Below, piece after piece: positions 26,401-29,400 of a stretch of DNA of 64,000 nt (the stretch's first letter is position 1; the number at the start of each line of letters is the position of its first letter). A program made the position numbers and the translations under genes. This DNA is from Mastigias papua (taxonomy: Eukaryota; Cnidaria; Scyphozoa; Rhizostomeae; Mastigiidae). The notes beneath the pieces were generated by a model. The model was not told the origin of the DNA, ran no database searches, and saw only the letters and a list, made by a program, of their open reading frames with translations. Where the stretch lies: assembly GCA_964019165.1 (NCBI GenBank), contig OZ025267.1, positions 1,531,001 through 1,595,000 on the forward strand. The letters run 5' to 3'.

Positions 26401-29400
26401 CATAAACTATGATACACCATTAGATGAGGTTTCTGGCGCTATTCAAAAGGAATTAGACGGTGCAGGCAAGCTCTTGGGGTACCGTGCAATGAACCAAAAG
26501 TTACGGATAAAACACAATATCAAGGTTCCAAGACACCTTGTTCATAATGTTATGGCAGACCTGGACCCTGAAGGCTTAGACGGAAGAAATTTGAAGAAAA
26601 AAGCAAAGAGGAAAAAGATCAATTTTACATCATATGGTCCACTTTGGCTTGTTTCTTTGGATGGCCATGACAAACTTTGTGGATACCAAAACTCGACGTT
26701 TCCATTTGGCATATATGGATGTATGGATACATTTTCAAGAAAGATTCTTTTTTTGTTTTTGTCATACTCTAACTCAAATCCAGAAATTGTGGGCAGAAAG
26801 TATTTGGAATATCTGTATGAAACACGTGTCCTTCCTTGTTACCTACGTATAGACAAGGGAACTGAGACAGGAAAAATGTCAACAATTCATGCATACTTGA
26901 CAGAGAAGCTTGGAGATATGGAGGATAGCACAGATGCAATCATATACGGACCATCTACATCAAACAAAATTGAGCGTTGGTGGCGTGACCTGCATGAACG
27001 TCTGGAAAAGTATTTTAAAGAGCAACTGACAAAGCTATTGAGAGAGGGAGATTATGATCCACATGATATCAATGATAGGCAGCTTCTATATTATGCATTC
27101 AAACCAGTAATAGAGAATGAATGTTCTTCCTTTGTGGAAAACTGGAATACCCACAGGATAAGAAGACAGAAAATAGAGCTTCCATCAGGAGTTCCTGATC
27201 ACATGTTTGCTTTTCCTACCTGTTATGGAGGCAAACAGTGTGGTATTGCTATCCCAGATGATAGTCTCACAGAAGTAGCTGCATTATCAGGAGTCTTGGA
27301 AGCCTCCACAGATGTTTATGATGAACATTTGTATAGGAAATGCACGCAAATATTACCCAGTCCTGATAAATTAAAACCCAATGAGCTTATGGAAGCATAC
27401 AAATTTCTCAGACATCACTACAGGAGAAACAAGGAAGGTTATTAGAGCTTACAATTTTTCATTGGAAAAACTCAGTGTTTAAAAGAAGACATACTTATAT
27501 ATATCAAAAAGCCACTTTTCAATCACTCAATATTTTAACAGATTTAGAAACAAAACATCCAACTACTCTTGAGTACCAAAGAATTGTCTCCCTTACTCCC
27601 ATGAGATTTTTATGAGCAAAATTGAATTTGCTTCCTTAGAGGGTTTTCTCTTATATAATGTATTAATGGGTAGTTGCAAGAATTATTATTTGATTGAACT
27701 AAGTGTATGAAAGCAAGCATGGAACTTGATAATCATTCAATATATCAATGTTTTCTATCCTCTAGTTCCCATTCTAATGCTGAATCATTAATTTTCAGGA
27801 AACTTTTTGACGTATTGTTTACACCTTTCTCCCAATTATTTGGTTATCAAGAGTATATAATGTGTAAGAAACATTGTATAAAACTGAAATATGAAAATAA
27901 TATCACTCTTTCTTTACTTGTTTATTCTGAAATGTCTAGCATATCACAATATTTGTTACAAATGTGCTCTTCAAAGAATTTTTTAATTCCAAATGAAGAA
28001 GTGTTACCAGCACAGAAATATAATTCACCACTGTCATCACAAAGGGTTTCTGTTGCAATTTCTGGGTCATAAAGTGTAAAGCCAGATCCTTGGATGTCAA
28101 GTAGCATGAGCTTTTTGTCTGACATCACATAAGTGAAATGAGCAAAGCATTCTGCCTTTGCAAATATTTCCTCCTCATTTTTATCAGCAGGATTAAGGTT
28201 TACTTTACCATCATTGTTTATGTACTTGATGAATTTCCCTTCAACAAATTCTTCAACTGTGATTGGTAAATCTTTGAAAGTAGAATAATAAGTTTTTCTG
28301 TAATGAAAGGTTTCACCAAACTGAACAGGAACTCTCCTGCTGAATTGCTTTGCCATGCTTCTTGCTACAGCATGGAGTTGAACTTGCTTTCTTGTATGAT
28401 CCTCAATGGAAATATGCAGATCATCAGTTATTGCTTTGATTGCACCATTCTGGTACTTCTTAACAACCCACTTTCTACTTGGAAGTTTAGAGCTTTGGGC
28501 ATAAGCATTATGTGCATCACGAAAGCCACCATGTGCAAATTTCAGCTCATCAATCATAAACTCAACAGATGCTGCCTCATTCCAAGATCTCAACTCAATA
28601 TCAAATTCTTCAAGGTGCAATATTACTCTCTCCTGCTGCAGAGGTTTTACTAGCTTTCCAGCTTTCAAAAGATCTGCTACAGACACTGATTTGGGGCTCA
28701 CCACAGAGGTTTCTCCAATGCATTCGGTAATTGCACCAACTGAACTGCTACTACTTGCTGCTGGGGACTTCATACAATGCTTCTTGTACTCCCTCCACTC
28801 AGGCTTGAAATCAACCTCAGGCACTGTTCCAATAGGTTGCACAAATCTGATGAGGTAAACTTTCTTGCCTTTAACTTGTTCCATAGTGGAGCAAGAAGGG
28901 CCACGGTCTGAGGCTAGAATGTCGCAAGAACCTGCCGGAGCATTGTAAAAACTTTCGCAAGCGGTTTTTATGTTCTCTATGTTGAGTTCATCATATTTGC
29001 ATGCAAATGGTACAAAGTCTCTGGTATCCATAGGCTCATACTTCTTCATGCGACCTGATGGGAGAGTTGACATCCTTTGAACAAGAATGTCTCCAGGCAC
29101 TTTACCAAAACTCTTACGACAATTAATACCCTGCGCCCTTTTCAACCCGATTCGTTTTTCAAGGTCGGCCCAAGTTTCTTTGCCAATTCCGGTCTTCTTG
29201 TTCATAATGGAGAAATAGAATATGTTTTCAAAAGCAGGTAATCGCTATTAATTACAGCTATCGCCAAGGAAGCTGATAAAATTCTGCAAATCAGAAGATC
29301 ATGTGCCGACCTCTTTCTGATTATTTCTATAACGAGGTTGATAACGCTGGGCCGTTTGTCAAAAGTAAAAAATCAAAATCAAAATCAAATGGAAAATCAT

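Follow-up and report, generated by a model that had tools for sequence, protein, structure and literature searches.

An intact alpha-kinase gene within a complete two-gene transposon, likely of the IS3EU superfamily, from Mastigias papua

Organization of the element and its transposase

The window, that is the whole 64,000-nucleotide stretch of Mastigias papua DNA analysed here, contains a DNA transposon with two convergent genes between long terminal inverted repeats. Its features, by window position, are as follows.

25956-29562: DNA transposon, 3,607 bp, with both ends and the target duplication located
25950..25955, no strand: left target-site duplication GAGTAC, the same letters as at 29563-29568
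25956..26209, plus strand: left terminal inverted repeat, 254 bp, starting TATGGTGGCC, perfect reverse complement of 29309-29562
26222..27445, plus strand: DDE transposase, 407 aa, D147/D211/E251, PF24764 integrase core, E 2.6e-19
27446..27921, no strand: spacer of 476 bp separating the convergent stop codons of transposase and kinase
27922..29205, minus strand: alpha-kinase open reading frame (ORF), 427 codons, uninterrupted, full length in 10/10 copies
27946..28536, minus strand: alpha-kinase catalytic domain, residues 224-420, from PF02816 (E 6.6e-32), AlphaFold2 and Foldseek
28642..28701, minus strand: conserved linker motif, residues 169-188 (SPKSVSVADLLKAGKL region), from conservation
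28828..29103, minus strand: N-terminal domain, residues 35-126, predicted ubiquitin-like beta-grasp fold
29309..29562, minus strand: right terminal inverted repeat, 254 bp, pairing with 25956-26209 at 0 mismatches
29563..29568, no strand: right target-site duplication GAGTAC, identical to 25950-25955

The inverted repeats were first detected as 255 nt of 100% complementarity and measure 254 bp after trimming to the TA ends. The element ends read TATGGTGGCC...GGCCACCATA, with TA..TA termini that fit the pattern TAYGG..CCRTA. Recomputing ORF and repeats bore out the sequence-only reading, which had placed an uninterrupted 427-codon frame wholly between 254-bp terminal inverted repeats and convergent with the transposase. 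The transposase ORF begins 12 bp and the kinase ORF 103 bp inside their respective repeats, and these positions suggest that the identical terminal repeats drive transposase and kinase alike. By eye, a TATA-like stretch is visible at the repeat's inner end. Neither AATAAA nor ATTAAA occurs in the spacer on either strand.

Elsewhere in the window, long inverted repeats just left of the element (24851-25742; arms of 156 and 85 nt, 96-99% complementary) suggest another short transposon, and a 424-codon ORF on the minus strand (1838-3112) resembles a seven-transmembrane receptor by eye. Tandem arrays lie at 15131-15510 (14-bp units), 34311-34903 (20-bp) and 42222-42835 (72/140/212-bp).

The transposase was aligned with 41 of the 120 relatives listed among 498 matches. 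All 42 sequences matched PF24764, and D147, D211 and E251, which we take to be the DDE residues of the window transposase, were invariant. The element likely belongs to the IS3EU superfamily, an assignment drawn from its termini, duplication length, DDE transposase and opposed kinase rather than from a tree with reference transposases. IS3EU elements are described as having TA..TA ends and usually 6-bp duplications in the accessible text of their account (PMC10045372).

The alpha-kinase and its N-terminal domain

By profile and predicted fold, the ORF at 27922-29205 is a member of the alpha-kinase family, with kinase activity as a prediction. The profile search that had been proposed for it returned PF02816 well above threshold (E 6.6e-32; score 111.5 bits, cut-off 21.3; profile positions 1-185 of 185), confirming the original assignment, and all 45 relatives in our kinase alignment, picked mostly for full length from the 120 listed among 285 matches, likewise exceeded the cut-off. 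Structure prediction gave the same answer: for the AlphaFold2 model (mean pLDDT 84), all 44 Foldseek matches at E <= 0.001 were solved alpha-kinases, the best being TRP-channel kinase and myosin-heavy-chain kinase A, and ordinary kinases and one RAS/RAF complex appeared only from E 0.006 upwards. Among proteins of solved structure, eEF2 kinase was the best match in sequence (E 2.5e-12).

Within the alignment, H356, D370, Q372 and D380 were kept in 45/45 kinases and K249 in 44/45, and among ungapped positions the remaining signature residues were fully conserved (H414 42/42, C416 42/42, C420 41/41). The signature named from the sequence alone, K249, D370 and H356/H414/C416/C420, was thus near-invariant among the relatives, except for its glutamate: E319 was found in only 27/45, against 44/45 for the neighbouring E318. 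These positions presumably represent the catalytic Lys, Glu and Asp and the His/His/Cys/Cys zinc ligands, whose roles are known from eEF2K and TRPM7.

The N-terminus, which had been set apart early on as a possible separate module, is a conserved domain with a predicted ubiquitin-like fold at residues 35-126, in line with that suggestion. At the sequence level, Pfam offered only three families for this domain, each with one member (E 0.04-0.24), and comparison with the sequences of solved structures gave a single weak match (E 0.16); all were set aside. Between the two domains, mean conservation rose from 0.25 at residues 127-168 to 0.70 at linker residues 169-188, including an S173 that was invariant across the 45 kinases, and we infer this segment to be a candidate switch.

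Copies, kinase-transposase pairing and selection

Searching the genome (347 Mb, 172 contigs) revealed ten full-length, near-identical copies of the window element at ten sites, each 3,607 bp long and differing from the window copy by 0-2 mismatches. Both frames were intact in every copy (kinase 427 aa, transposase 407 aa). Exact 6-bp target duplications flanked nine copies; the tenth had one of exactly 16 bp. This longer duplication (CTCAGTGTTGACCAAA) belongs to copy L006 (G000:C20:9360227-9364507) with L035; duplications of 15-16 bp are given for the related IS481EU in the accessible text (PMC10045372). A search with the terminal repeat yielded 20 matches from 20 candidates, exactly both ends of the ten copies, so the genome search found neither a kinase-less copy nor a solo end of the window element. 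That the copies are near-identical, and that neither decayed kin nor solo ends turned up in the search, suggests a recent arrival or a recent burst; the family may represent a recent invasion, possibly a horizontal one. Among the matches listed, the nearest kinase from another genome (P0002) was 79% identical.

Beyond the ten copies, the kinase also occurs in other element families. The kinase search gave at least 104 matches, with 98 of 149 candidates scored, and at least 94 of these are lower-identity matches elsewhere in the genome, many of them fragments. Both ends and 6-bp duplications were located for a three-copy family (3,740 bp), L016 (4,540 bp) and L023 (3,132 bp), and five copies of other families carry 6-bp target duplications. 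Three other element families likewise start TATGGTGGCCCA. The kinases of the 3,740-bp family, L016 and L023 are 54%, 46% and 42% identical to that of the window, respectively, with the gene at the same place and in the same orientation. Stops interrupt the kinase of L016, the transposase of L023 and the transposase in one of the three 3,740-bp copies. For L014, L015, L018 and L019, the search for element ends found no good ones. Recurrence in other families rules out a single capture of the kinase by the window element alone. The original proposal that the kinase is true cargo therefore holds insofar as the gene is a genuine part of the transposon, carried full length by 10/10 copies with none found to lack it, and fails insofar as it implied one-off cargo.

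Kinase and transposase were consistently found side by side. Of 30 fetched kinase loci, 28 had a transposase match inside the 1.5-kb flank, convergent in 28/28; L015 and L022 had none in that interval. Conversely, the transposase search (115 matches, 102 of 310 candidates scored, merged to 89 loci) placed a kinase within 5 kb at 56/89 loci, convergent in 56/56, against a chance expectation of ~0.002 per locus. This pairing followed lineage, with 56/77 close-lineage transposase loci having a kinase within 5 kb as opposed to 0/12 distant-lineage loci. Among loci spanning >= 1,090 bp, 31/32 had a convergent kinase, ten of these being the identical copies; the sole unpaired one belongs to the distant lineage, and the 21/77 unpaired close-lineage transposases all span < 1,090 bp.

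Twenty-six of 81 kinase loci had no transposase within 5 kb, a few of them full-length. As scoring covered only part of the candidates, the totals are lower bounds, and the partners of some lone loci may lie among the unscored ones. Full-length kinase frames with no scored transposase within 5 kb lie at L015 (G000:C10:17378075-17379349), G000:C18:1053314-1054585 and G000:C6:8302852-8304096. Such lone kinases may be decayed elements, kinase-only derivatives or co-opted genes. The 12 distant-lineage transposase loci, which are < 41% and mostly 29-33% identical to the window transposase, have no kinase, so not every related transposase needs one. Two of the 12, L069 and L070 (G000:C15:4061000-4068500 and G000:C3:17549500-17556000), encode frames of 425 and 441 aa at 32-33% identity, with CxxC pairs among the first 50 residues. 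Neither has a kinase frame nearby, and terminal repeats were not recognised among the best 25 of 233 and 25 of 62 pairs, mostly tandem arrays. Overall, the most fitting reading is that the kinase belongs to IS3EU as a standing second gene and is not stray cargo.

Relatives named among the matches listed came from corals, anemones, hydrozoans, tunicates, a hemichordate and a limpet. No fungal name appeared among the listed protein matches, the distant-relative search included, most entries being nameless. Outside this genome, seven kinase/transposase cases had exactly equal sizes of their longest contig, with 114 of the 120 listed per side sized. The equal-size cases seen, against chance, were 1 versus ~0.8 below 3 kb, 1 versus ~0.04 at 3-10 kb and 5 versus ~0.04 above 10 kb; a multi-megabase contig in common does not prove adjacency, and the 5.4-, 64- and 85-kb contigs are the better evidence. 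Scanning viral contigs and prokaryote genomes with the kinase alignment gave 111 and 81 peptide-pattern stretches, respectively, none encoding a relative.

Comparing families, median pN/pS was 0.46 for the kinase (0.38-0.71, 21 pairs) and 0.36 for the transposase (0.29-0.46, 15 pairs), values that are bounds rather than estimates, as synonymous sites are near saturation. Inside families, with frames cut at stops and low power, the kinase showed 101.5 nonsynonymous and 32.5 synonymous changes over six disjoint pairs (pN/pS 0.82, p 0.39 versus neutrality) and the transposase 20 and 4 over three pairs (pN/pS 1.33, p 0.80). The kinase is hence constrained between families, somewhat less than the transposase, and its drift inside families is indistinguishable from neutral. 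The purifying selection that a dN/dS comparison had been proposed to detect is accordingly visible at the first level and not distinguishable from neutrality at the second. Genes selected through transposition usually show constraint from one element lineage to another and drift almost freely once inserted, and from this combination we conclude that selection on the kinase probably acts via the element rather than the host. Host selection keeping the kinase is unsupported, given within-family drift that, at low power, is indistinguishable from neutral.

Kinase and transposase distances also correlated with each other. Over 13 pairs, of which six lie side by side in this genome and seven were matched by equal longest-contig size with adjacency unseen, r was 0.75, a value reached in 0/20,000 permutations. 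Omitting either one of the two closest pairs gave r 0.55 (7 or 14 of 20,000 permutations). Nearest neighbours agreed in 4/12 between the two distance matrices, and in an earlier test with 8 pairs r was 0.56, reached by 1,005/40,320 permutations.

Possible roles of the kinase and comparison with known systems

Together, these findings describe a complete two-gene transposon, likely IS3EU, with an intact alpha-kinase bearing a predicted ubiquitin-like domain. Since the element retains the kinase gene, which varies in step with the transposase, we tentatively favour, at close to an even chance, an accessory role in which the kinase licenses or boosts transposition of the element that carries it. 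Transposase and kinase would be expressed together from the duplicated terminal repeats, and the ubiquitin-like domain would dock the kinase onto a partner. The kinase would then phosphorylate either the transposase itself or a transposase-bound host protein, the substrate being the least certain step, and this phosphorylation would let excision or insertion proceed. A bolder version, which we consider possible though doubtful, is that alpha-kinase-bearing IS3EU elements are obligate two-gene transposons, in which a kinase aimed by its ubiquitin-like domain is no less necessary to their spread than the transposase, has descended with it and switches transposition on by phosphorylation.

The strongest rival to transposition licensing is a host target: the kinase may phosphorylate a silencing or repair protein, such as a factor acting in small-RNA pathways, chromatin or DNA repair, thereby keeping the element expressed. 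We judge this rather unlikely, though it has a precedent of sorts, since rust-fungus IS3EU carry a TET/JBP demethylase and IS3EU elements therefore take up genes of an anti-silencing type; transposon TET has been proposed to counter methylation silencing in the accessible text of that report (PMC12730594). The predicted ubiquitin-like domain could dock on host ubiquitin or SUMO machinery, yet the co-divergence of kinase and transposase fits a partner within the element at least as well. It is less probable still that the kinase mimics eEF2 kinase and slows host translation, aiding the element under stress or limiting transposase dose. Although eEF2 kinase is its best solved relative by sequence, the best fold matches are TRP-channel kinase and myosin-heavy-chain kinase A instead, and at an identity of ~22% the substrate cannot be read from this likeness.

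The small number of copies, only ten found in 347 Mb and all intact, would suit a negative regulator that limits copy number in a repressor-like way. We hold this to be quite improbable, as a self-limiting gene should easily be lost among competing copies, yet no kinase-less copy was found. Host-gene capture by transposons does occur, and with 26/81 kinase loci standing alone the kinase might be a host gene that was caught within the repeats as a mere passenger and is useless to the element. This reading is already largely refuted and keeps the slimmest chance of all: the kinase is intact in 10/10 copies, sits at the same place and in the same orientation in four two-ended families (the other three 42-54% identical), is constrained between families and diverges together with the transposase, and an alpha-kinase is reported in fungal IS3EU too (PMC12730594, accessible text).

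If an accessory kinase for transposition is indeed required, this would be a case of a DNA transposon controlling its movement through a signalling enzyme that it carries itself, and the ten intact copies are ready test material. Many short proteins catalogued as 'TRPM6-like', 'eEF2 kinase' or 'myosin heavy chain kinase' in corals, sea squirts and other animals are probably transposon genes. The same cause may extend to rusts, where the alpha-kinase family is highly expanded; as far as the accessible text of that study goes, ten genomes held 79 and 39 alpha-kinase domains in two, 5 in one and 0 in seven (PMC4469406), and these may even be the same genes.

The sequence-only reading had regarded alpha-kinases as unusual for transposons, but they are not without precedent. 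For fungal IS3EU they are already in print, mentioned in passing and with no function given in the text accessible to us (Kojima 2025, PMC12730594). For animal IS3EU, we found no statement on alpha-kinases in the part of the open-access literature surveyed, and an earlier mention is possible.

Among other systems with accessory genes, the TBE transposons of Oxytricha combine a Tc1/mariner transposase with another accessory gene, and their own kinase is not termed an alpha-kinase in the accessible text (PMC4724952). Styx of Zymoseptoria is reported to derive from an ancestral IS3EU element encoding two proteins; it has four genes, with no kinase named among their products in the accessible part of the paper (PMC10853768). 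Like eEF2K, the TRP-channel kinase ChaK and myosin heavy chain kinase A, the window kinase shows the alpha-kinase fold and signature; unlike them, it is transposon-borne, has a predicted ubiquitin-like domain attached and is only ~22% identical. With IS3EU/GingerRoot elements generally, the window element shares TA..TA termini, the usual 6-bp duplications and a DDE transposase, according to the accessible text of an account in which the word 'kinase' occurs 0 times, whereas the window element has one (PMC10045372). In architecture the window element resembles the IS3EU of rust fungi, which also combine an IS3EU transposase, an opposed alpha-kinase gene, TAYGG..CCRTA ends and 6-bp duplications. 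In all families of the TET-bearing rust elements, as given in the accessible text, the TET/JBP dioxygenase gene is added between the transposase and alpha-kinase genes, which lie in opposite orientations (Kojima 2025, PMC12730594); in the window element a mere 476 bp separates the stop codons, which leaves no room for such a gene, and transposase and kinase face each other directly.
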